Below are positions 30,026-46,794 of a DNA stretch of 47,497 nucleotides, in pieces. How positions within the stretch are numbered: position 1 is the stretch's first letter; each line of letters opens with the position of its first letter. The notes under the pieces are model-generated. The model searched no databases. It had not been told where the DNA came from and worked only from the letters and a program-made list of their open reading frames with translations. Source of the DNA: Phycisphaerales bacterium (GTDB taxonomy: Bacteria > Planctomycetota > Phycisphaerae > Phycisphaerales > UBA1924); the NCBI GenBank assembly GCA_014379385.1, contig JACMLW010000192.1:1-47497 (forward strand). The letters are read 5' to 3'. Both the position numbers and the translations under genes were made by a program.

Positions 30026-31105
30026 GTGACCATCGCCGCGTATTGGCTGTACGGCCTCCCCATACCTCCGCTGCGGGTCGTGGACGACGACGGGAGCATC
30101 CGGCGCCCGTTCTCGGCGGCTCTCCTCGCAATTGCTGTCGGGGTGATTGTCCGCAACGTGTTCCCACGCGTAGCGATGCCCCTCTCGCCCGGGCTCAAGC
30201 GCCTTGTAAAGGTCGTCCTCCCCCTCTCGGTCGTGTTCGCCGGCGCCAAGGTTGACCTCGCGCGACTCGGGTCGGAACTCGGCGCTCGGCCGGTCGTTGT
30301 CGTGGCCGCGGGAATCTGTGTCGCGGTCGCCTCGGCGGTGCTGTTGGCGCCCCTGCTGAAGCTGCCGCGACGGGTGGGCGCGGTGATCGGCGCGGGCACG
30401 GCCATCTGCGGGAACCAGGCGGTGATCGCGGTGGCGCCGGTCGTCAAGGCGACCGACGAGGAGGTCGGTGTCTGCATCGCGACGGTGAACCTGTGCGGGC
30501 TGGTGGCGATGATGGCGCTGCCGGCGATCGCGGGCGCGATAGGCATGTCGCCGCATCTGTATGGCGTCTGGGCCGGATCGAGCATTCACTCGGTGCCGCA
30601 GACCGTCGCCGCGGGCTTTGCGCTCGGGGCCGCGGCGGGCGAGGTCGCGACGCTCGTGAAGCTGCTGCGCGTGGCGCTGCTGACGCCGACGGTGATGGGG
30701 CTCGCCGTGATCAAAACGCGCCGGGATGCGCGCCGGCTCGAAGCGCTGGCGGCTGCTGAGGGTGGGGCCGATGCGCAGGCCGGCGGCAGTGTCAGGCCGC
30801 TGGCTTTGGTGCCATGGTTCTTGTGGGGGTTCCTCGCGCTGGCGACGCTCAGCACGCTCGGGCTGCTCGGCCGTGTCACGATCCCGCTCGCCGGTTTCGG
30901 CGACAACGGACTCACCATCGACGTCAGCGAGTGGCTGGCCCGAGTCGGCTCGGTGCTCCTCACGATCGCGATGGCGGCGATTGGTCTGGAGCTTGACCTT
31001 CGCCACCTGGTGCGCAAGGGCGGGCCGACGCTGGCTCTTGGCCTGACGTCGAGCGTGCTGCTCGCCGGCACCACGCTGATCGTTTCGCTGCTCCTGATCA
31101 AGTGA
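30026..31105 (+). CDS. YeiH-family putative sulfate/sulfite exporter
   Basis: A 359-residue polytopic membrane protein of the YeiH family (UPF0324). Signature stretches include VVLPLSVVFAGAKVDLARL, GAVIGAGTAICGNQAVIAVAPVVKATDEEVG and GVWAGSSIHSVPQTVAAGFALG, and about ten helices are visible. GTG 30026 is the first canonical start, but it cuts into the first helix. The frame stays open upstream to CTG 29912, which overlaps the CDO stop (CTGA) and has CGGGAG upstream, so the real start may be there. YeiH proteins are proposed sulfate or sulfite exporters. Its position behind a cysteine dioxygenase fits sulfite disposal. Confidence 0.85.
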   Translation: MTIAAYWLYGLPIPPLRVVDDDGSIRRPFSAALLAIAVGVIVRNVFPRVAMPLSPGLKRLVKVVLPLSVVFAGAKVDLARLGSELGARPVVVVAAGICVAVASAVLLAPLLKLPRRVGAVIGAGTAICGNQAVIAVAPVVKATDEEVGVCIATVNLCGLVAMMALPAIAGAIGMSPHLYGVWAGSSIHSVPQTVAAGFALGAAAGEVATLVKLLRVALLTPTVMGLAVIKTRRDARRLEALAAAEGGADAQAGGSVRPLALVPWFLWGFLALATLSTLGLLGRVTIPLAGFGDNGLTIDVSEWLARVGSVLLTIAMAAIGLELDLRHLVRKGGPTLALGLTSSVLLAGTTLIVSLLLIK

Positions 31106-31137
31106 TCGCCTCCAAGCGCGGTCGCACGTCGCCCTCC

Positions 31138-31854
31138 CTACTCCCAGGGCGGAAGGTCAAAGACGACCGCAGCGCTGTCCGCCTCGCCCGCGAGCGCGAC
31201 CGACGATTCACCGGTGATCGCGGCCCCGTCGCCAGGTCCGAGCCGCTGTTCGCCAACGCGCACCGCGCCCTTGAACGCCTGGATATACGCCGACCGCCCG
31301 GGTGCCAACGAGAGCCTCGCCCCCTCGCAGGCGTCGAAGCGAGCCAGGTACATCTTGGCGTCCTGGTTGATCGTGAGCACACCATCACCGCCGCCCGGCG
31401 CCGCGACCAGCCGCAGGGGCGAACCATTGCCGGCAGCGGGCGCGCCGAGGTCAAGATCCTCGTACGACGGCTCCAGCCCGCGCTGCGACGGGATGACCCA
31501 TATCTGCAGCAGATGCACCGGCTCGGCGCGCGAGGCGTTGAACTCGCTGTGGCGGATGCCGCGCCCCGCGGTCATGCGCTGCAGCTGGCCAGCCTTGATC
31601 TGCTCGGTGTTCCCGAGGCTGTCCTGGTGCGCCAACGTGCCGGAGATGATGTAGGTCAGGATCTCCATGTCGCGGTGCGGGTGCATGCCAAAGCCCTGGC
31701 CCGGGGCAACGACGTCATCGTTGATCACCCGCAGCGGGCCGAAGCCCATGTGTTCCGGGTCGTTGTAGTCACCGAAGCTGAATGTGTGGGCGGTCTTGAG
31801 CCAGCCGTGGTCGAATGTGCCGCGGGTGGAGGCCGGACGGAGCGAGATGCTCAT
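31138..31854 (-). CDS. Pirin-like bicupin protein
   Basis: A 238-residue bicupin. The N-terminal cupin carries the pirin metal site H58-x-H60 (GMHPHRDMEILTYIISG) and H102-x-E104 (GIRHSEFN). The C-terminal cupin is degenerate, as usual in YhhW-type pirins that can act as quercetin 2,3-dioxygenases. The ATG follows the doxX stop with no gap, indicating one operon. It is probably repressed by the MarR protein encoded at 32385, since doxX has a matching operator. A redox or electrophile-response role is likely from family context, but the substrate is unknown. Confidence 0.92.
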   Translation of the reverse strand: MSISLRPASTRGTFDHGWLKTAHTFSFGDYNDPEHMGFGPLRVINDDVVAPGQGFGMHPHRDMEILTYIISGTLAHQDSLGNTEQIKAGQLQRMTAGRGIRHSEFNASRAEPVHLLQIWVIPSQRGLEPSYEDLDLGAPAAGNGSPLRLVAAPGGGDGVLTINQDAKMYLARFDACEGARLSLAPGRSAYIQAFKGAVRVGEQRLGPGDGAAITGESSVALAGEADSAAVVFDLPPWE

Positions 31855-32298
31855 TCAGCCCGCCTTTCTGGGAAATACCTTGTGCTCGGGGAAGAGCGCC
31901 AGGCGGCCACCGCCGGTGAAGGCGATGCCCAGCGCGACGACGCCGAGAGTCAGCGGAAACTCCATGCCGTTCTTCCCGGCCGAGAACGCGCCGGGATGCA
32001 CGGTGATGATCGCCACGGCCATCGTGATCGCGAAGGGAACCGCGGCGATGCGCGGCAGAATGCCCAGGATGAGCATGGCGCCGCCGCCGAACTCCGCCAG
32101 GGCGGCAAGCCAGGCCGAGACACCCGGCATGGGGACGTTCAGGGTTTCGAGGAATCCGGCAAAGCCCTTCATCCCGGGCCCCTCGAACGCTCCGAAGATC
32201 TTCTGCGAGCCGTGAAAGACACCCACAACGCCGACGATCGAGCGGATCAGCAAGAGGCCGACGTCGAGCGGCGTGATCTTGGATGCGGGGACTGCCAT
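31855..32298 (-). CDS. DoxX-family membrane protein
   Basis: A 147-residue protein starting at ATG 32298 with AAGGAG upstream, preferred over a longer frame to 32388. Four hydrophobic helices are visible: VGLLLIRSIVGVVGVFHGSQK, VSAWLAALAEFGGGAMLILGIL, AVPFAITMAVAIITVH and FPLTLGVVALGIAFTGGG. RSIVGVVGVFHGSQKIFG is the typical DoxX start. DoxX-like proteins lie in the inner membrane and are often in thiol or quinone stress operons. It is first in an operon with the pirin gene. An operator-like palindrome lies 41 bases upstream (32339-32356). Confidence 0.85.
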   Translation of the reverse strand: MAVPASKITPLDVGLLLIRSIVGVVGVFHGSQKIFGAFEGPGMKGFAGFLETLNVPMPGVSAWLAALAEFGGGAMLILGILPRIAAVPFAITMAVAIITVHPGAFSAGKNGMEFPLTLGVVALGIAFTGGGRLALFPEHKVFPRKAG

Positions 32299-32338
32299 GA
32301 CGGGATCTCCTTCTTCGATAATCTGATTGGGCGGAAAG

Positions 32339-32356
32339 TACATGTTACAACAACTA
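32339..32356 (-). promoter_or_regulatory. Putative MarR operator upstream of doxX-pirin
   Basis: On the minus strand it reads TAGTTGTT-GT-AACATGTA, an imperfect inverted repeat with two-base centre (6 of 8 arm positions pair). It closely matches the site next to the marR start at 32890-32907 (16 of 18 positions the same). It lies 41 bases upstream of the doxX ATG, a normal place for a repressor site. Confidence 0.65.
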
Positions 32357-32384
32357 TCTACGCGGAACCTCGCGGCTGTGTTCG

Positions 32385-32888
32385 TCACCGCCGCGGGGCG
32401 CCGGTTCCCTCCGCGGCGAGTTCCGGATGACGTGCCTTGAAGAGCAGACGATTGAGCTCCGCTAGTTCGGCGCGGGACATGTGGGCCAACTGAGCCTTGT
32501 GCATGTGGATGAGAGGCTGGTCGAGCTTCGCCAAGAGGTCAAGCCCCTTGGGCGTGATGCGCACCGTGACGACCCGCCGATCGGCGTCGTCGCGCCGGCG
32601 TTGCGCCAGCTTTGCCCCGCACAGTCGGTCAACCAGACGCGTGACATCCGGGACCGCGGAGACCATCTGCTGACCGATCATCTGCGATGGGAGACCCTTC
32701 GGCTCGTGCCCGCGCAGGATGCGCAGCGCGTTGTACGTGGCCTCCGAGAGCCCGAACGGTCTGAACAGGCGGAGGCTGTCGATTTCCAGCACCCTGGCGG
32801 TGCGGATGAGATTAAGGTACGCCTCCTCTTCCGGGTGGGCGAAGTGGTGTTTCTTGCCGAGCTCGTGTTGGAGCGAGTGGGGGGGCAT
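32385..32888 (-). CDS. MarR-family transcriptional regulator
   Basis: A 167-residue winged-helix protein starting at ATG 32888. The helical dimer part (EEEAYLNLIRTARVLEIDSLRLFRPFGLSEATYNALRIL) precedes the HTH (LPSQMIGQQMVSAVPDVTRLVDRLCGAKLAQRRRDDADRRVVTVRITPKGLDLLAKL), with the D-R-R in the wing typical of MarR. Its own operator-like palindrome directly abuts the ATG (32890-32907), leaving no room for a ribosome site and suggesting a leaderless message under autorepression. The same motif lies before doxX, so it probably controls the doxX-pirin operon downstream. The inducer is unknown; electrophiles or quinones are plausible for this gene set. Confidence 0.88.
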   Translation of the reverse strand: MPPHSLQHELGKKHHFAHPEEEAYLNLIRTARVLEIDSLRLFRPFGLSEATYNALRILRGHEPKGLPSQMIGQQMVSAVPDVTRLVDRLCGAKLAQRRRDDADRRVVTVRITPKGLDLLAKLDQPLIHMHKAQLAHMSRAELAELNRLLFKARHPELAAEGTGAPRR

Positions 32889-32889
32889 G

Positions 32890-32907
32890 TAGTTGTTGAA
32901 ACAAGTA
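32890..32907 (+). promoter_or_regulatory. Putative MarR operator at the marR start
   Basis: It reads TAGTTGTT-GA-AACAAGTA on the plus strand, with 7 of 8 arm positions pairing. It ends one base from the marR ATG (minus strand). It is the better of two matching sites in the window, the other being at 32339-32356. Confidence 0.65.
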
Positions 32908-32982
32908 TATCTGGCGTGCCCGCGGCCGTCAAGAGAGATGGATGACGCCCCCCGAAACCCAAGCGCCTCGGCAAGTTGCAGT

Positions 32983-33459
32983 TCAGCCACGCGCGTAGAT
33001 CACGAGCCGGTGCCCCTCGGCCCGCACGCCGCGGGCCTGACAGATGGCGTCGCGGATTGCCACCAGCTGGGGCACCTCAATCGGCGTGATTTCCTTGGTG
33101 TCAACACGCACGAGGAGGCCGGTCGAGCGGCGGCCGTAGGCGAGCTGGTAGTGCGACTGCTCGGCGTCGAAGAGCACCTGCTGGATGATTCCCGCTTCCT
33201 GCAGCAGCTTGATGGTGCGATAGATCGTCGCCTTTGAGACGCGGAACCCCGCGCCCTTCATCCGGTACAGCAACTGATCGACCTGGAACACTTCGTCGGC
33301 GCGGATGATCGCATCCAGGATCTGGGCCCGCTCCGGCGTGTACTTCAGCCCCACGTCGCGCAGCTTCCGACGGAACACCGCGCACAGCGGCTCGCTGATG
33401 CTCAGCTGCTCTTCGTCGCCGTCGCGGCTGCCGGGCTTGGGGAGCGGGGCCAGGTCCAT
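32983..33459 (-). CDS. Divergent Fur-family regulator lacking canonical metal ligands
   Basis: A 158-residue protein starting at ATG 33459, eight bases after the squalene-hopene cyclase stop. The N-terminal winged helix is clear (FRRKLRDVGLKYTPERAQILDAI...FQVDQLLYRMKGAGFRVSKATIYRTIKLLQEAGIIQQVLF), with the Fur recognition segment VSKATIYRTIKLL. After SHYQLAY the usual histidine-rich HxDHxxC and CxxC segments are missing: the sequence there is GRRSTGLLVRVDTKEITPIEVPQLV, with only C140 left. So DNA binding is expected, but metal sensing as in Fur or Zur is doubtful. It is the last gene of the ybeY operon. Confidence 0.8.
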   Translation of the reverse strand: MDLAPLPKPGSRDGDEEQLSISEPLCAVFRRKLRDVGLKYTPERAQILDAIIRADEVFQVDQLLYRMKGAGFRVSKATIYRTIKLLQEAGIIQQVLFDAEQSHYQLAYGRRSTGLLVRVDTKEITPIEVPQLVAIRDAICQARGVRAEGHRLVIYARG

Positions 33460-33467
33460 GCCGCAGT

Positions 33468-35915
33468 CTACGCGATCGCGCACGCCAGCCGACGATACCG
33501 CCCCAGCGCCATCACAGGGAAATAGTGCCGGTACAGGTGATACCGCAGGTAGAAGACCTTCGGGAACCCCGTGCCCGTGAAGAAATGCTCCGACCATCCG
33601 CCCGCGTGATCCGCTAGCGAGAAATCAAAGGCCGCGAGCTGCGTGGTGCCTGGATCATGAATGTTCCCATCCGTCCACGCCGGCTCGTGCGGAACCTTCT
33701 CGCTCGCAAGCTGATGATCGCACAGCCACGCCGCGGCACGCCGCGCGGACTCATCAGTCGGCGATACAAGATACATTAGGCTGAGCAGTCCCCACGCCGT
33801 CTGCGAGGCGGTCGAGGGGCCGCGCCCCATCAGCGAGCGATCGAGGTACGTGTTCGCAGTTTCACCGAAGCCCCCGTCGGCATTCTGCACGCAGCGCAGC
33901 CACTCCAGCGTGCGGCGCAGCGACGGGTGAAAGACCGATGCGTCGCCGCTTCGCCCCATCGCGTACGAGAGGCCGCCCACCGCCTGCCACGTGCCGTACA
34001 CGTAGTTCACGCCCCAGCGCCCCCACCAGCACCCCTCCGGCTGCTGGTGCCCCAGCACATACCTCACGGCGCTGCGTACGGCCTCGCTCTCTCTCGCCAC
34101 CCCGCATGTAATGAGCGCCTCGAGCACCCGCCCCGTGATGTCTGCGCAGCTTGGATCCTGCATCGCGTTGTGGTCTGCGAACGGGACCGCCTCCATCCAC
34201 GGCCGGTCCTTCGTCCGGTCGAACGCCGCCCACCCGCCATCATCGTTCTGCATCGCGAGCATCCAGCGCGCCGCGAGCCGCGCCGTACGCCGGCACTCCC
34301 CCGCGAGCCGGTCGAGTCCCGCCGCATCGTCGCGCCCCGAGCTCGCTCCATGTCGCGCCACCCGATCAGCCGCGCGCCACAGCGCCTTGGCCGCCATCGC
34401 GGTGTCATCGACATCCGGGTACCAATCGTTGCGATACTCAAACGCCCATGCCGCGCCGTCCACGCCCAGTTGAATCCCCCGATCTTCGGGCCGCAGATTC
34501 CGCACCCAGTCCCCGTTGCGGCGGACCTGGCGATCCAGGAGCCAGCGGCAGCACACGCGGACCTCCGCGCTATTCCCGATGTTCAGCCCCGTCTCTGTCA
34601 GCGCGTACAGCGCGATCCCCGTGTCCCAAACCGGCGAGAAGCACGGCTGGATACGAAGATGCGCGCGAGCGGGCTCGGTCGGCACGGTGGAGGCAGGGGG
34701 GACAGGGGGCCGCACGATGAACGCATCAAGCTGCGCCTCGGCATCGCGAATGACCGGATGCCATCGCTCGTACCCCAGCGACTTGAGCGCAATCTGCGCG
34801 TACACCATCGGGGGGAAGATCGCGCCCAGGCCCTCGGTCGTCTCCGGGTTCATCCGCTCGACAAGCCATCGCTCCGCCAGGCGCTTCGAGTACTCCTGCA
34901 GCGGCATCACCCCGGCGCGAGCTGCCAGCTTGAGCAGCCGGTCGATCACCAGAAACGCGTTGCTCCAGTTCAGCGGCTCGCCACGGTCGATCCGCTTGTT
35001 CAGGCGCGACCGCGCGTGGTGGCTGACGAACAACTCATCGATCCCGAGTCCCGCCGGGAGGCGCCGCACCGGGCGCGTCGCCGCGCAGATCGCCAGCGGC
35101 AGGATCATCGTCCGCGTCCAGGCCGCGACCTTGTCCAGGTGGAACGGGGAACATCGCGGCAGCAGCACGATCTGCGCCGGGATCGCGGGGCACGCATCCC
35201 ACGACACCTGCCCCAGGCACGCGAGGTAGAACATCGAGAACGTGTTGATGTTCTCGGCACCGCCCATCGACAGCACGAGGTCGCGCGCCGCCCGCATGTG
35301 CGCTGCGGCCGGCGGGTCGCCCATCAGCTTGAGCGCGAAGTACGCCTTCACCGTCGCCGAGAGGTCCACCGGCGAGCCGGGATACTGCCCCCAACCGGCG
35401 AGACTCGTGCCCTCCGAGGGGGAGGGGGGATGGCCACCCACATCCACCCGCGCGTGCAGCCCTTGCGTCATCCGCAGATGGTTCGCTAGGAGATGAAGGT
35501 CGTCTCGCGTGGGGCGACCGGCGCCTCGATGAGCCCCACCGGCGCCCGGCGCATCGCCTTCCTCCTGCCCCAGGATCCACTTCATCAGCAGGTACTCGCT
35601 CGAGAGAATCGAATCGCCCTCAAGCTCCGCGCACCAGTGACCCGCCGAGACGCCCCGCCCACTCTCAGTCCCCGTCGCACCCCACGGACGATCGTCGTGC
35701 TGCTTATCGAGGAGCGCCGCCACCGCGCGATCCAGAGCGACGCTCACTGCCGCGGCCATGCCCCGGCCGGCGGTCGGTATCGTGGGGCCAATCCTTGCGC
35801 GATCCGAGGTGCCGTCGGGGGCATCGGCCCCGCCGCGCGAAGACGTCGGAAAGGGGGAGGGGGGGGAAGACAGGGCGTGCGGGCCCTGACCTGGAGCATC
35901 GATCGCGATCGTCAT
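33468..35915 (-). CDS. shc: Squalene-hopene cyclase
   Basis: An 815-residue protein whose ATG at 35915 overlaps the stop of the CorC-like gene (ATGA). The class II terpene cyclase acid motif DxDD is DVDD at residues 501-504. QW-type repeats are seen in [24 protein letters not shown] and [24 protein letters not shown] and [24 protein letters not shown] are family hallmarks. It cyclises squalene to hopene at the inner membrane, the base of hopanoids. It is about 100-150 residues longer than usual because of a disordered N-terminus (about 1-50) and a loop of about 60 residues near 118-178. Sterol cyclases have a different acid motif context, so SHC is preferred. Confidence 0.93.
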
Positions 35916-37291
35916 TTGGAGCTCTGCCCGTTCTCTTCGCGGCCCATCGAGGCCGGGGCCTGCGCCAGGCCGGCGCCCGGCTCGGACGGCCGCACCTCCA
36001 GCCGCACCTTGAGCACCCGCTGCGGTGACGCCTCCAGCACCGTCACCACCGCCTGGTCGTGCCTGAAGCTCTCGCCGGGCGACGCGATCCGCCCGAGTAT
36101 CGCGTTCACAAAGCCGCCCACCGTGTCGTACTCGTCGCTCTCGGGGATGCGCCACCCAAGTGGTGTGAGCGCATCGTTCACATCATCGATGTATGCCCGC
36201 CCGTCCACCTCCGCCGTGCGCGTGTCGAGCTTCACCTCCACCTCGGGCGTCTGCTCTTCCTCGTGCTCGTACTCATCGCGGATATCGCCGACGATCTCCT
36301 CGAGAATGTCCTCGATAGTCACCAGCCCGCTGGTGCCGCCGTACTCGTCGGCAACCATCGCGATGTGGACCTTCTTTTGCAGCAGCTCTCGCAGCAGCTC
36401 ACGCACCGTCTTGGTCTCGGGAACAAAGAACGCCGGCCGCAGGATCGATCGCAGGTCGAACGGCTGACCGGCCTCGCGCGCCCCGCCCCCGGCGCCCTCC
36501 CCCGCCAGCCAGCGCATCAGGTCCTTCACATAGAAAATACCGACGATGTTGTCCAGCGAGTCCTCATACACCGGGATGCGCGAGTGCCCGATCTCCTTGA
36601 TCGTCCGCGTCACCTTTCCCAGGTCGTTCGTGACCTCGAACGCCTCCACCTCCGTCCGCGGTGTCATCACCTGCTCCACCGTCAGGTTCCGGAACTCCAC
36701 CACCGCTTCGATCATGTCGCGCTCGGCCTCATCAAACTGCCCCTCGCGCTCCCCCTCCTCCACCACCGAGAGCAGCTCCGCCTCCAGCACCTCGGACTCG
36801 GTCGACGCCTGGATGCCCGCCAGCCTCTTGACAATCTCGTCGATGAACCGCGCCATCGCCCGCGCCGGCGCCGCGATAATCCAGCACGCCCGCACCATCG
36901 CCGAGCATGAATAGAGCGTCCGCTCCCCAACGTGCCAAGCCACGCTCGAAGGGATCGCGATCGCGACAAGCCACAAAAGCCCCCCCGCGATCGGCACGCC
37001 GATCAGTGCGTCCTTCAGCACATAGCCGGTCTCGGGCGTGACCGTCGCAACCTCCGCGACGCACGCGACGACCACGGACGCCGCGGAGAGCGACTCGAGA
37101 ATCCCCATGGCGCGAGCGTGCCCGGGTGTATCGTCGAGGATCGCCTTGATGCGCCGCGTCGCGTTGGGGCGGTTGCGGACGGTCGCGATGTCCTCCAGCA
37201 CCGCGCGAGCCAGATCAACCAGCGAGAGCCGGAGCGACGCGAACAGCCCCGTCGCGATGAGAGCCGCGAAGAGCACCCAGAAAGGGTTCAC
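35912..37291 (-). CDS. CorC/HlyC-type CBS-domain membrane protein
   Basis: A 459-residue protein; the GTG at 37291 overlaps the ybeY stop (GTGA), preferred over ATG 37312. A DUF21-like membrane module ([72 protein letters not shown]) is followed by a CBS pair (about 205-330: [68 protein letters not shown]) and a CorC_HlyC domain (about 345-430). Such proteins are implicated in magnesium or cobalt efflux and usually lie beside ybeY, as here. It forms the middle of the ybeY-corC-shc-fur operon. Confidence 0.9.
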
Positions 37292-37896
37292 GGAGCGCCC
37301 CCATCGGCGCACCCAGCGCCCGTCGGCGCACCCGCGAATGCAGATCCCACGCCGAGCGCTCCGAGCAGCAGGTCTTCCTGCCGGTGCATCGCGCTGAACG
37401 ACACCTTATCGTGGTCGTCGTACCCGTAACAATGCAGAACGCCATGGATCGTGTAGAGCAGCAGTTCCCGCCGCACCTCGTGCCCGCGCTCGGCCGTCTG
37501 ACGGGCCGCCTCATCGAAGCAGATCAGGATTTCGGCGTCCAGTGGGTACGGCGGTCCCTCCCCTGGGCCGTCGGTCAGATCAAACGTCAGCACATCGGTG
37601 GTGCCGGCGATCCGGGAATACCGCTCGTGCGCCGCGACCATCGCCGCGTCGTCGCAGATACGGACGGAGACGACTCCCTGCATCGACATGGCCCCCGCGG
37701 CCGTCGCGAGCTTCTGTGCGAGCCACTCCAGATCGGCCGATGGCAGAAGCCGATCGGGGTCGTTCACTTCGACATTGACGCACTCAGACGCGCGCGCGTC
37801 GATCAACACCGGGACCGTCTGCCGCACCGGAAGCATGCGGACCAGCGTCGGTCGCCGGGGGGGTTCTGACGTCTGTTCGTTCCCGGCGTCGTCCAT
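37288..37896 (-). CDS. ybeY: Endoribonuclease YbeY
   Basis: A YbeY-family protein with the zinc-binding motif H-G-x-L-H-x-x-x-x-D-H as HGVLHCYGYDDHD, and the conserved stretch GTTDVLTFDL. It acts in 16S rRNA 3' end maturation and ribosome quality control. The start is uncertain: I use ATG 37896 (202 residues), but ATG 37977, 37935 and 37836 are in frame, and the fold itself starts around VNVEVNDPDRLL. No Shine-Dalgarno decides. The first 40 residues are polar and unlike the family. Its stop overlaps the CorC-like start, and PhoH, its usual partner gene, lies about 5 kb away on the other strand. Confidence 0.88.
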   Translation of the reverse strand: MDDAGNEQTSEPPRRPTLVRMLPVRQTVPVLIDARASECVNVEVNDPDRLLPSADLEWLAQKLATAAGAMSMQGVVSVRICDDAAMVAAHERYSRIAGTTDVLTFDLTDGPGEGPPYPLDAEILICFDEAARQTAERGHEVRRELLLYTIHGVLHCYGYDDHDKVSFSAMHRQEDLLLGALGVGSAFAGAPTGAGCADGGAP

Positions 37897-38107
37897 CGGC
37901 GTCGTGGCGTGGCCCCGCCCAACCCCTCCGTTCATCCGCCGATCAAGGGCGACACGCCCACATCGGCAAGCTGCCATTGTAGGAGGAACCTCATCAATCG
38001 CGCCGCGAGAATCCGTTATAAGTTAGTGCGTGCTCATGAAATTAAGATGCCGTGAGCCGCGCCAACACCCTCTTCGGGTAGACTAACCGAACGAGGAGAG
38101 CCTGCAT

Positions 38108-39010
38108 ATGTGGAAAAGCGCGCCCACCGCCGCCACCGTCGCGGCAATGTTCCTGAGCGCCGGCGTCGACCCACCGGCACCGAGCGAGAGCAGCGGCTCG
38201 ATGCCCGCGGCATCGAATCCAGCCGAGCCGTCGGCTCCTCATGCGCCGTCAAATGAACCCGCCTCCCCGAAGTCGCTCGTCTCCTTTCCACACCCACTTA
38301 TCTCCGAGGTGCTCTACGCGGTGCCCACCTCGGGCGGCGATGCCAACGGCGACGGCACCCGTCAGGTAGCCGGCGACGAGTTTATCGAGCTCATCAACCC
38401 GCACGACAAGCCGATCCAGCTCAAGGGTTACAAACTCAATGACCGCAACCCCTTGGCAAAAGGGCAGTTGCGATTCGTCTTTCCGACGGTCGAACTCCCG
38501 CCCGGCGGTGTGGTCGTCGTCTTCAACGGGCACGAGTGTAAGTGGAAGGGACCGGTCGGCGATTCCAAAGCACCCCCCGATTCCGCCAATGAGCGCTTCT
38601 ACAATGCCCTCGTCTTCACGTTTAAGAGTGATACCCAGCGCACAAGCTGGGCGAACCAGGGCGACTACGTCCTGCTCAGCGACCCCGCGGGTGAGCCGAT
38701 TCACTGCGTGTACTGGGGCACAGTTGAGGAGACGATCCCCGAGGCCGCGAAGGTTGAAGAGGCCCCGCTCGTATTCAAGTCCAGCATCCAGCGTCAGCAT
38801 TTCGGCGGCGAGTTCTTCGAGCACGCGGCTTTGCACGACGAGCCGTTCAGTCCGGGCAAGCCCCCCGAGCCGGCGCCCAAACCCAGGGCCGCGCCAGCGC
38901 CCGAAGGGTCAACCGGACCAACCCGGGCACCCGCCGCGGAGCCAACAACTCCCGTCCCCTCTGAATCTCCCGCCCGTCCCGATCCTTCCGCGTCACCTGC
39001 GTCAAAGTAG
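38108..39010 (+). CDS. Lamin-tail-domain protein, probably exported
   Basis: A 300-residue protein with a short N-terminal hydrophobic stretch (AATVAAMFLSAG) that may be a weak signal, then a Pro/Ser/Ala-rich linker. A lamin tail (LTD) immunoglobulin-like domain follows at about 63-190: LISEVLYAVPTSGGDANGDGTRQVAGDEFIELINPHDKPIQLKGYKLND, PTVELPPGGVVVVFNG and NQGDYVLLSDPAGEPIHCVYWG. The D-A-N-G-D-G loop looks calcium-binding. A long Pro-rich tail ends the protein. Bacterial LTD proteins are usually extracytoplasmic and of unknown binding partner. GAGGAG precedes the ATG. The kinase gene starts two bases after its stop. Confidence 0.75.
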   Translation: MWKSAPTAATVAAMFLSAGVDPPAPSESSGSMPAASNPAEPSAPHAPSNEPASPKSLVSFPHPLISEVLYAVPTSGGDANGDGTRQVAGDEFIELINPHDKPIQLKGYKLNDRNPLAKGQLRFVFPTVELPPGGVVVVFNGHECKWKGPVGDSKAPPDSANERFYNALVFTFKSDTQRTSWANQGDYVLLSDPAGEPIHCVYWGTVEETIPEAAKVEEAPLVFKSSIQRQHFGGEFFEHAALHDEPFSPGKPPEPAPKPRAAPAPEGSTGPTRAPAAEPTTPVPSESPARPDPSASPASK

Positions 39011-39012
39011 TA

Positions 39013-39831
39013 ATGAAACTCATTCGCATTGCCAGCGGCGAATCCCGCGACGAGTGGGCGAAGTTCACGGGCGCCATCGGTCCCGGGCCAACCCCGGAGT
39101 TGATGCTCGCCAAGCAGGAAGCGGGCGACTGGGTCGCGCTGGGGACGGCCGGGGGGGCGCGGGTCGTCATCAAACACCGCCGCTTGCATGGACTCTTCGA
39201 TGTTGCCCGAACGTGGTTTGGCCTTGGCCGGCTCGCGCGACAGTGGCGCGGCGCCGCCACGCTGACCAGGCTTGGCCTTGTCACGCCGCGGCCGCTCGCG
39301 CTCGGTGTCAGTCGCACGGCCGAAGTGCTTGTCATGGAGCACGCGGGGGGTGAATCGCTGCTGAAACTCATGGCGGGACAGACAACCCGGCCCCACGCCG
39401 TTCGTGACGAGCACCGCATCGCCGAACGCCTCGGCGAGGCCATCGCGCGGCTCACCGCGCTCGGATGGTTCAACCGCGATTTCAAGCCCTCGAACATCCT
39501 GATCGCCGACCCGATCGAAGACCCCGTCGTCGTGCAGATCGACACCGTCGGCATCCGTCGCACGCAGTCGCGAACCGGTTTGTATCGCCCGCGCGGGGGG
39601 CGCCGCGGCGCTCCGCGCCGCATGCTCGCCTCCCTGTACATGGAACCATTGGGGTGCGGGTTCCCGCCGCGCCGGGCCCTGCTCATGCGCGGGCTGACGG
39701 CGTACACGAACTCGGCGCTGGTCGGCATCACTCCCGATCTGATCCGGGCGGCGCGCCACTCGATTTGGCGGTTGCTGGATGAGGAAATCGCTCGTCATGG
39801 CGACCCGACTCCTCGCACACCGCCGATCTAG
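39013..39831 (+). CDS. Kdo/WaaP-like lipopolysaccharide kinase-family protein
   Basis: A 272-residue protein kinase-like fold. The ATP lysine is K54 in ARVVIKHRR, the catalytic loop is N-R-D-F-K-P-S-N (D156, N161), and the metal aspartate is D177 in VVQIDTVG in place of DFG. Catalytic residues are therefore intact. The small size and RDFKPSNILI style fit the WaaP/KdkA group, which phosphorylates sugars of the lipopolysaccharide core, but planctomycete members may have other targets. It starts two bases after the LTD protein gene. The next gene, a methyltransferase, is 48 bases downstream on the same strand. Confidence 0.75.
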   Translation: MKLIRIASGESRDEWAKFTGAIGPGPTPELMLAKQEAGDWVALGTAGGARVVIKHRRLHGLFDVARTWFGLGRLARQWRGAATLTRLGLVTPRPLALGVSRTAEVLVMEHAGGESLLKLMAGQTTRPHAVRDEHRIAERLGEAIARLTALGWFNRDFKPSNILIADPIEDPVVVQIDTVGIRRTQSRTGLYRPRGGRRGAPRRMLASLYMEPLGCGFPPRRALLMRGLTAYTNSALVGITPDLIRAARHSIWRLLDEEIARHGDPTPRTPPI

Positions 39832-43057: not shown

Positions 43058-44251
43058 ATGGCGGCGCCGGCCTTTGGAGATCTGCCAACGTTGGAGATTA
43101 CGTTCAAAGTGCCTGAGGGGGCCGAGCGCGTCACGATGCTCGGCCTGGGCGATCGCAACCTGAAGATCATCAGGGAAGCGCTGGGGGTCAAGGTTTCTGC
43201 GCGCGAGGGCGTCGTGCGCGTGAGCGGCGAGCAGGAACCAGTCTCCGCGGCCCGAGGTGTTCTTGAACGGCTGGGTGTCGCCGCCGAACGTAACGAGCCC
43301 CTCTCCAGCCAGGAAGTGCTCGATCTGATCGGGCGCGCCATGTCAGGCGAGCTGCGCGTGCCGTCCGCCAAACCAATCGGCGGCACAGGCGGCAACGGCT
43401 TTGATGACGCCGACCGCGAGTACGGCCCAGCCTGGGACCGCACGCTGGATGTCTACGCAGCCGGCCAGCCCTTGCGCGCCCGCACGCCGAACCAGCAGGT
43501 CTACCTCGACGCCATCCGCGACCACGATCTGGTCTTTGGCATTGGCCCAGCCGGCACCGGAAAGACCTATCTCGCCGTCGCCGCGGCGGTGCATCTGCTC
43601 AAGGCCGATCGCGTCCGCAAGGTCATCCTGGCTCGCCCCGCGGTGGAAGCCGGCGAGAAACTCGGCTTTCTCCCGGGCGACCTGCAGGCCAAGGTCAATC
43701 CGTACCTTCGCCCCCTCTTCGACGCCCTCCACGACATGATGGATTTCCCGACCATCAAGCGATTCATGCTGAATGACGTGGTTGAGGTGGTGCCCCTCGC
43801 CTACATGCGTGGCCGAACCCTCAATAACGCCGTGATCATCCTCGACGAGGCCCAGAACACGACCAAGGGCCAGATGCAGATGTTCCTCACCCGCATGGGT
43901 CGCGGCAGCAAGATGATCATCACCGGCGACACGACCCAGATCGACCTGCCCGATCCGACGCAGTCAGGGCTGATCGACGCGGCACGCCTGCTGTCGCGGG
44001 TCAAGGGCATTGGCTTTGTCACGCTCGATGAGCGCGACATCGTGCGGCACCACCTGGTCCAGCGCATCGTCGAGGCCTACGGCCGGCGCGACCAGGCCGG
44101 GCGGCAGGTGCGGGGATTTGATATTCACACAGTGGATGGGGCGGGCGTGGCCGACGCCGTCGGGAGGGGAGGGCCGGGGTCTTCGGAGGCTCCTCAAACT
44201 GGGGCCGAAGCGCCGAGTGTGGCTGAAACTAGGTTACCGGACGGCCGATGA
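43058..44251 (+). CDS. phoH: PhoH-family ATPase
   Basis: A 397-residue protein. An N-terminal KH-like region (about 12-80; VTMLGLGDRNLKIIREALGVKVSAREGVVRVSGEQE) precedes the PhoH P-loop domain, with Walker A GPAGTGKT, the PhoH block ILARPAVEAGEKLGFLPGDLQAKVNPYLRPLFDAL, Walker B VIILDEAQNTTKGQMQMFLTRMG and ITGDTTQIDLP. A poorly conserved tail of about 60 residues follows. It is a nucleotide hydrolase thought to act on RNA with YbeY. The pgpH gene follows on the same strand, completing two members of the phoH-pgpH-ybeY-corC neighbourhood found in many bacteria. Confidence 0.93.
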   Translation: MAAPAFGDLPTLEITFKVPEGAERVTMLGLGDRNLKIIREALGVKVSAREGVVRVSGEQEPVSAARGVLERLGVAAERNEPLSSQEVLDLIGRAMSGELRVPSAKPIGGTGGNGFDDADREYGPAWDRTLDVYAAGQPLRARTPNQQVYLDAIRDHDLVFGIGPAGTGKTYLAVAAAVHLLKADRVRKVILARPAVEAGEKLGFLPGDLQAKVNPYLRPLFDALHDMMDFPTIKRFMLNDVVEVVPLAYMRGRTLNNAVIILDEAQNTTKGQMQMFLTRMGRGSKMIITGDTTQIDLPDPTQSGLIDAARLLSRVKGIGFVTLDERDIVRHHLVQRIVEAYGRRDQAGRQVRGFDIHTVDGAGVADAVGRGGPGSSEAPQTGAEAPSVAETRLPDGR

Positions 44252-44310
44252 GGACAACTGGGCTGCTCGATTGAGCGGACCATTTGGTAGGAGCGCCGAG
44301 CGAACTACGA

Positions 44311-46794
44311 ATGTCGAGGGCAGCAAGCCAACCCGGAGTACGTGGTCGTCGCGGCGGAGGCCGCTTCTCTCGTCCCCCCCGCGACGGGCGGCGCGGGGCC
44401 GCTTCCGGTTCAGCCGGCGGCGGGTCGTCCCGCGGCCTGCTGATGGAGCGCTTCATCCACTTGTGGCGCGAGCCGGGCACCGGCTGGGGATTAACGATCT
44501 GGGCGACCTTTGCCGCTGCCTGCACCCTGATGGCCATCCTGTCGCGCGAGCGCCCGCTGGTCGCGGTCGGGCGAGTGATGAACCAGACTGCCACCGTTCG
44601 AGTCGCGTTTAAGCAAGAGGATCGCGCCGCGACCGACCAGTTGCGTCAGGACGCCCGCCAGCGCACGCCGCGGATCTACGTCGCCGACACCACCGAACTC
44701 CAGGAGCTTGGGGTCTCGCTCCAGAACCTTCCCGCGACGCTTGTCGCCGCCGAGACCATTCAGGACGTCGCCCCGGACATCCGCGACAAGTTCGGCCTGA
44801 CGGCCGAACGGCTCGCGGCCGTGCAGGCGCAGACCATAGACGGCGAGCCCACCAAAGGGTGGATCGACAGCACCGACCAGCTCTACGCCCTGCTCTTGCA
44901 GCGACCGATCCTGGATGGCCAGACGTTCCAGCGCGAATGGCAGAGTCTGAACAAAGAAATCCAGTTGATGGTCGAGGATCGCACGGAAACCGCGATCAGC
45001 AGCGAGATCATCAACGGCAGCGACCCCGCCAAGATGGAGCGCGAGGTCGCGGGCATCGTCCGGCAGGCCGGCTTTTCAGGTCCGTTGCTCGCGGTGGTCA
45101 CCGCCCGGCTGCTGTACGACCCCAAGCCGACGTTTCGCTTTGACTCCGATGCAACGACCAAGGCCCAGGACCAGGCGGCCCACCTCATCGCCGTCGTCGA
45201 GCGCGACCGTGTCCCCGGCCAGGTGATCTTCACTCGCGGCGACGTTCTACAGCAGGAGGTCTACGACCTCTACGGCGCGGAGCTCCGCGAGTATGTCAAT
45301 CAGACTGAGGCGTGGAAAGTCTGGCTGCGGCGCGCCAGCATCGCCGGCGCGGTGCTCGCCGTGACGGGCGCGATCGCGGGATACTCGGCGCTCTTCCTCC
45401 CTCGGATTCGCCGCAACCCAGCGCACGGCGGGGGGATCGCGGCGCTCCTTGCGGGCGCCCTGGGCCTGGCGTGCTGGGGAACCGTGACGGACCCGGGCCT
45501 CCTCACGCTCACGGCTATCGCGCCGACCGTGTTCGTCGCCGTCATCCTCGGAATCGCCTACGACCGGCGCGTGGCCCTCGGGTACGGCGCGCTCCACGGG
45601 CTGCTGGTTTGTACCTCGCTCGATCAGCCCATCGGCATCTATGCCCTGATGATCACAGGCATCGGCGTGGCGGTGTGGTCGCTGCGCGAGGTGCGCGACC
45701 GCACCAGCCTGGTGCGCATGACGGCCTATCAGGCGGCGGCCCTCGCGGTCGGCACGATCCTCGTGGCGCTCATCGACCGACCGCTTGTTGAGGCGTCCCT
45801 TCGCCAGACACTGGTCGATGCCGGTCTGGCGGGTTTCGGCGGGCTGCTCGCCGGCGGCGTGACCATCTTCATATTGCCAACCATCGAGCGATGGTTCGGC
45901 ATCACCACCAGCATGACGCTGATCGAGCTACGCGACCCGAAGCACCCCCTGCTCCGCGAGCTACAGCAGCGGGCCCCGGGCACGTACAACCACTCGCTCA
46001 ACGTGGCGAACCTCGCGGAAGCGGCCGCGGAGGCCGTCGGCGGCAGCGGGCTGCTCGCGTACGTAGGCGCGCTCTACCACGACGTGGGCAAGATGAACAA
46101 GCCCGACTACTTCGTGGAGAACCAGACGCCTGGCATTAACCGGCACGACAAGCTCAGCCCGGCGATGAGCCTGCTGGTGATCGTCGGCCACGTGAAGGAC
46201 GGCTTGGAACTGGCGCGCGAGCATGGCATCCCGGAGCCCATCCATCACTTTATCGAGGCCCATCACGGCACCACGCTCGTCGAGTACTTCTTCCACCGAG
46301 CCCGTATGTTGGCGGCCTCGGGCGGGAGCAGCGGAGGCGGGATCGGCGCTGGCGCCGCGGCGAGCGGCAATGGAAACGGGAGCGGCAACACGCACGGCGA
46401 TCTGTCGGCCGCGCCCGAGGAGATCGAGTACCGCTACCCCGGCCCCAAGCCTCGCACCAGGGAAGTCGCGATCGTCATGCTGTGTGACGCGGTGGAATCG
46501 GCCTCGCGCTCGATGAGCTCGCCGACGCCGAGCCGGATCGAAGCGGTCGTGCGTGCCCTCGCGACGAAGCGGCTGATGGACGGCCAGTTCGACGACTGCG
46601 ACCTCACGCTGCGCGAACTCAACACCATCGTCGAGGCCATCTCCAAGACGCTGGCGGCGATCTACCACGGGCGCGTGGCGTACCCCCAGGGTAACGAGAG
46701 GGCGGGGGAGCCCAAGACGACAGCTGTGATGCCACAGCCTTTGTCGAGTGGGGGCTCCGTTGAGGCGCGTGCGCCACAGCCGGCGCAAGTCTGA
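44311..46794 (+). CDS. pgpH: PgpH-like 7TM-HD cyclic-di-AMP phosphodiesterase
   Basis: An 827-residue protein starting at ATG 44311 (TTG 44284 also in frame). One membrane helix after a basic Gly/Arg-rich stretch precedes a large extracytoplasmic domain (about 80-335; VMNQTATVRVAFKQ...). Seven membrane helices lie at about 340-540 (LRRASIAGAVLAVTGAIAGYSALFL onward). The HD hydrolase domain has NHSLNVANLAEAAAE and the catalytic pair H590-D591 in ALYHDVGKMNKPDYF, then HGIPEPIHHFIEAHHGT. A Gly/Ser/Asn-rich insert of about 40 residues splits the HD domain near 670-700, which is unusual. PgpH proteins degrade cyclic di-AMP. Confidence 0.9.
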   Translation: MSRAASQPGVRGRRGGGRFSRPPRDGRRGAASGSAGGGSSRGLLMERFIHLWREPGTGWGLTIWATFAAACTLMAILSRERPLVAVGRVMNQTATVRVAFKQEDRAATDQLRQDARQRTPRIYVADTTELQELGVSLQNLPATLVAAETIQDVAPDIRDKFGLTAERLAAVQAQTIDGEPTKGWIDSTDQLYALLLQRPILDGQTFQREWQSLNKEIQLMVEDRTETAISSEIINGSDPAKMEREVAGIVRQAGFSGPLLAVVTARLLYDPKPTFRFDSDATTKAQDQAAHLIAVVERDRVPGQVIFTRGDVLQQEVYDLYGAELREYVNQTEAWKVWLRRASIAGAVLAVTGAIAGYSALFLPRIRRNPAHGGGIAALLAGALGLACWGTVTDPGLLTLTAIAPTVFVAVILGIAYDRRVALGYGALHGLLVCTSLDQPIGIYALMITGIGVAVWSLREVRDRTSLVRMTAYQAAALAVGTILVALIDRPLVEASLRQTLVDAGLAGFGGLLAGGVTIFILPTIERWFGITTSMTLIELRDPKHPLLRELQQRAPGTYNHSLNVANLAEAAAEAVGGSGLLAYVGALYHDVGKMNKPDYFVENQTPGINRHDKLSPAMSLLVIVGHVKDGLELAREHGIPEPIHHFIEAHHGTTLVEYFFHRARMLAASGGSSGGGIGAGAAASGNGNGSGNTHGDLSAAPEEIEYRYPGPKPRTREVAIVMLCDAVESASRSMSSPTPSRIEAVVRALATKRLMDGQFDDCDLTLRELNTIVEAISKTLAAIYHGRVAYPQGNERAGEPKTTAVMPQPLSSGGSVEARAPQPAQV

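Follow-up and report, generated by a model that had tools for sequence, protein, structure and literature searches.

The ybeY-corC-shc-fur gene run of a Phycisphaerales bacterium: a probable lineage-specific rearrangement

Among the known arrangements close to the locus studied here is the ybeZ-ybeY-corC-lnt operon of enterobacteria, in which ybeY lies directly upstream of corC, as excerpted in PMC12421838, and a squalene-hopene cyclase (SHC) gene is mentioned for Poriferisphaera corsica in a passage of PMC7783415. An exact-word search of the open-licence literature returned no paper joining ybeY and hopanoid. The window analysed here, a stretch of 47,497 nucleotides on a contig of an uncultured Phycisphaerales bacterium, shares the order ybeY then corC with the enterobacterial operon. 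It differs from the latter in having neither lnt nor a phoH/ybeZ gene directly upstream, in a corC-like product with a CNNM domain, and in continuing with shc and fur. Compared with the ybeY-corC-cysS order of Phycisphaerales, the overlapping pair is shared, but the third place, held by cysS in several relatives, is held by shc. The cyclase belongs to the same family as that of other Phycisphaerae loci, whereas elsewhere shc stands among varying, unrelated genes. Because relatives keep shc, fur and ybeY-corC apart, we consider it very likely that the run is a lineage-specific rearrangement, a local reshuffle and not a regulated system of a new kind.

Gene order and junctions

Sequence reading and Pfam place four genes on the minus strand, from 37896 down to 32983, in the order ybeY-corC-shc-fur:

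37288 to 37896, minus strand: ybeY, rRNA maturation RNase, first in the run (PF02130, 5.1e-22; TIGR00043, 3.9e-25)
35912 to 37291, minus strand: corC-like CNNM/CBS/CorC_HlyC membrane protein, GTG start (PF01595, PF00571, PF03471)
33468 to 35915, minus strand: shc, squalene-hopene cyclase, ATG start (PF13249, PF13243; TIGR01507)
32983 to 33459, minus strand: Fur-like regulator (PF01475, 1.3e-18)

The four identities proposed in an earlier, sequence-only reading of this DNA were borne out by Pfam, which found the YbeY domain, CNNM, CBS and CorC_HlyC domains together in the second protein, the N- and C-terminal SQHop_cyclase domains and a FUR domain. In NCBIfam, the CorC-like and Fur-like proteins each fall under every cut-off.

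The stop codon of ybeY (TGA, 37290-37288) overlaps the GTG of corC (37291-37289) in a GTGA, the stop of corC (TGA, 35914-35912) overlaps the predicted ATG of shc (35915-35913) in an ATGA, and the stop of shc (TAG, 33470-33468) is followed by an 8-nt gap, ACTGCGGC, and the fur ATG at 33459. The GTGA and the 8-nt gap of the sequence-only reading are thus in the sequence as described; its ATGA is present too, with a shc start that is only inferred there. The start of fur is backed by the N-termini of relatives (MDLAP in L102; L107 and L109 begin similarly).

Judged by their common direction and near-zero-gap packing, the four genes are plausibly, and probably, read as one message, which would start ahead of ybeY. 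No sigma-70-like promoter match was found within ybeY-fur, although this is a weak test in planctomycetes. No terminator-like site was found across the 31000-38300 stretch, so read-through past fur may occur, and Rfam gave no RNA element at gathering level in 30500-39500.

The start of shc is likely at 35915, a position favoured because relatives open with similar peptides (MTIA in the window, against MTIA, MTTT and MTTP in L063, L059 and L228, respectively). The codon-usage gene caller chose instead the in-frame ATG at 35759, which would leave a 152-nt gap and no overlap with corC, so that shc would adjoin corC, and the 152 nt between them could hold a promoter or leader for shc alone. The low complexity of SHC residues 1-52, with their C-rich repeat, fits this shorter form, but the agreement of MTIA with the starts of the three relatives and the lack of any sigma-70-like match in those 152 nt make it rather unlikely. 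The sequence CCCCCCTCCCCCT occurs twice within shc (35852-35864 and 35417-35429), in low-complexity coding stretches, and in six exact copies across the assembly.

Neighbours of ybeY-corC and shc in relatives

The adjacency of ybeY and corC, which the sequence-only reading had taken to be a known pairing, is conserved in the family, and ybeY is immediately upstream of corC here too. A corC gene was detected in 76 of 81 genomes of the family; ybeY adjoins it at all 20 fetched family corC loci, as well as in two further genomes, G288 and G416, and the exact -4 overlap is present at 12 of 22 loci compared, window included. Because this overlap is so frequent, what is unusual about the run comes down to two junctions, corC-shc and shc-fur, as judged by sequence comparison. 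cysS is the direct same-strand neighbour 3' of corC in 6/22 loci and also in G416; in the window's genome, cysS lies on a different contig, C123. These neighbour tables, like those for shc and fur, are approximate, since our home-made gene caller misses or misframes genes (e.g. ybeY in L098). Genes named by sequence, which we take to be phoH- and pgpH-like, lie about 5 kb from ybeY on the plus strand of the window (43058-46794). In one relative (G377, L131), phoH-/pgpH-like genes are directly divergent from ybeY-corC.

shc is present in 40 of 163 family genomes and in 90 of the 397 class genomes sampled, and its neighbourhood was fetched from every one of the 40 family genomes (the window among them) and from 49 of the 78 found outside the family. 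shc stands beside corC or fur in none of the other 39 family genomes that carry it, and at none of the 49 loci from outside. The four-gene order, whose absence from close relatives the sequence-only reading had named as refuting its proposal, is thus missing from all 39, including G294, the nearest by SHC, where corC is on a different contig and fur shares a contig with shc at a distance of about 42 kb. At least 500 nt upstream of shc was available at 37 of the 40 family loci and 5 kb at 32; 5 kb upstream together with 3 kb downstream was available at 31, and contig edges may hide a few neighbours. Genes named by eye from sequence as Gfo/Idh-like, FIST-like and acyltransferase-like recur near shc in some relatives and are absent from the window, and the idea of a conserved shc partner gene was rejected.

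A looser proximity does recur, ybeY-corC being within about 9 kb of shc in 2 of the 39 genomes, G288 and G416, and in both within 5 kb. Among 11 family and the 49 outside loci, the Fur-like gene was near shc in none and ybeY-corC was nearby in G288 alone, about 4 kb away and divergent. The remaining 28 family loci gave one further case, G416, with ybeY-corC-cysS-methyltransferase-shc on a single strand (L228, 8828-16025), and 73 loci on named genome contigs, from partly overlapping genomes, gave no ybeY-corC case beyond G416 (L137) and G288 (L203). Assuming 18 kb around shc and a 3.3 Mb genome, the chance of two such extra cases is P ~0.02 for the 39 family genomes and ~0.08 for all 88 relatives, a mild hint from gene positions that the proximity of ybeY-corC and shc may be more than pure accident.

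This recurrence, the near-zero gaps at the three junctions and the occurrence of Salmonella corC in an operon with the envelope gene lnt, according to an excerpt of PMC12421838, would suit a selected functional operon, one whose joint expression of YbeY, CorC and hopanoid synthesis serves envelope or stress adaptation and which the Fur-like protein regulates. We regard such an operon as improbable: the order is missing in the nearest relative and in all other shc-bearing genomes examined, the window genome, G288 and G416 fall at three different points of the SHC tree, and the Fur-like gene occurs with or without shc. A more elaborate proposal is that shc moved repeatedly and independently beside ybeY-corC, co-expression with ribosome maturation and cation handling being useful, and that the Fur-like protein, made from the same message, senses a non-metal signal and links in the state of the envelope; to this we would give scarcely any credence.

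The SHC protein itself has the features of its family. It scores 481.4 bits against the TIGR01507 cut-off of 431.1, and the DXDD motif, which is the catalytic motif of squalene-hopene cyclase, is present as YPDVDDTA in alignment with the solved SHC 1gsz. On an SHC tree of 37 of the 40 rows (left out were L060 and L240, where no ORF was called, and L236, shorter than 600 aa), it groups with G294, the nearest family member by SHC, with a support of 99/98, and therefore shc is no recent foreign gene; this and the even composition of the stretch lend no support to horizontal acquisition. SQS_PSY domains, of the squalene-synthesis type, are encoded away from shc, on contigs C83 and C211 of the genome. 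The one on C211 is followed by an amine-oxidase-like gene that looks HpnE-like by eye.

The genus is sampled by one genome, a 227-contig assembly, and the four-gene order has thus been seen once. The fragmented assembly, the uniqueness of the order and the absence of the genome's own fur from its usual place by exbD2 would fit a contig that joins pieces lying apart in the cell. Such an artefact would need two joins, each falling exactly at a gene boundary; shc, corC and fur each match the genome just once at the thresholds applied, SHC and CorC both match G294 best within the family, and the stretch does not stand out in 4-mer composition. We consider an assembly error highly improbable; the run is genuine as sequence, and its order is, across the genomes compared, confined to one lineage.

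In the local reshuffle that we favour, the genome's only shc, inherited vertically, and the widely conserved Fur-like gene would have come to lie 3' of the conserved overlapping ybeY-corC pair, at a position often taken in relatives by cysS or unrelated genes. The shc product would make hopene from squalene, itself probably supplied by HpnC/HpnD-like enzymes whose genes lie on other contigs, and the Fur-like protein would be a house regulator with no specific hopanoid tie. The locus carries a caution: tight same-strand overlaps resemble a designed operon, yet comparison finds ybeY-corC alone to be conserved.

A near-universal Fur-like protein

The FUR domain of the protein at the end of the run is recognised by PF01475 at 67.8 bits, against a cut-off of 23.1. 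It shares with Fur/PerR regulators the winged-helix part and the overall length but differs in having neither HHxDH nor CxxC, as seen in an alignment with solved Fur chains (6d57). In the Fur family these are the metal motif and zinc site. HHxDH or CxxC was found in none of 18 family rows; one conserved His, in [GN]HR, is left in 16/18, and a S[KR]ATxYRT stretch is kept in all 18. The alignment left out L096, L100 and L124, for which the gene caller took another frame. An exact-phrase search on Fur in the open-licence literature found no paper.

The sequence-only reading had suggested that the tail gene might govern membrane lipid output. The comparison speaks against it: 79 of 81 genomes of the family have the Fur-like gene, independently of shc (40/163), and in relatives it commonly converges on exbD2 or follows a polX-like gene, its neighbours being exbD/tsaE/thiL-like or polX-like (all of these names were given by eye from sequence). 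A role as a dedicated hopanoid regulator is unlikely because the gene is near-universal, does not track shc, stands elsewhere beside exbD or polX, and encodes a protein with neither HHxDH nor CxxC, and we rejected it on these sequence grounds. The genome's own exbD1-exbD2 locus, on contig C208, is without fur, which fits relocation of the Fur-like gene. The near-universal occurrence, in this Phycisphaerales family, of a Fur-like protein devoid of the metal motifs is the more lasting side result and a testable question in its own right.

The marR-doxX-pirin genes downstream

The run had been described as ending at the Fur-like gene, but three more genes continue on the minus strand down to 31138, the first of them preceded by a promoter-like sequence:

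32893 to 32932, minus strand: sigma-70-like promoter TTGACG-17-TATACT (32932-32904) and palindrome TTGTTTCAACAA (32904-32893), candidate marR operator (motif match)
32385 to 32888, minus strand: marR-like regulator, first gene of a probable separate unit (PF01047 barely above cut-off; PF12802 under cut-off)
31855 to 32388, minus strand: doxX-like membrane protein (PF07681, 1.1e-21)
31138 to 31854, minus strand: pirin / quercetinase-like cupin (PF02678, 1.5e-36; PF17954, 6.9e-22)

Because the promoter match and the TTGTTTCAACAA palindrome stand before marR, these genes are probably a separate, MarR-autoregulated unit, in which the two elements would serve as promoter and operator. Exact-word searching of the open-licence literature found no paper joining DoxX, pirin and 'MarR family'. 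The promoter is the sole sigma-70-like match in 31000-38300, where shuffling gives 0.7 expected, so that alone it is not significant. The palindrome, a pattern picked after being seen, occurs once in the window, where base composition predicts 0.003 copies, and overlaps the -10 of the promoter match by one base. The marR ATG is at 32888; an alternative GTG upstream, at 32990, would overlap the fur stop.
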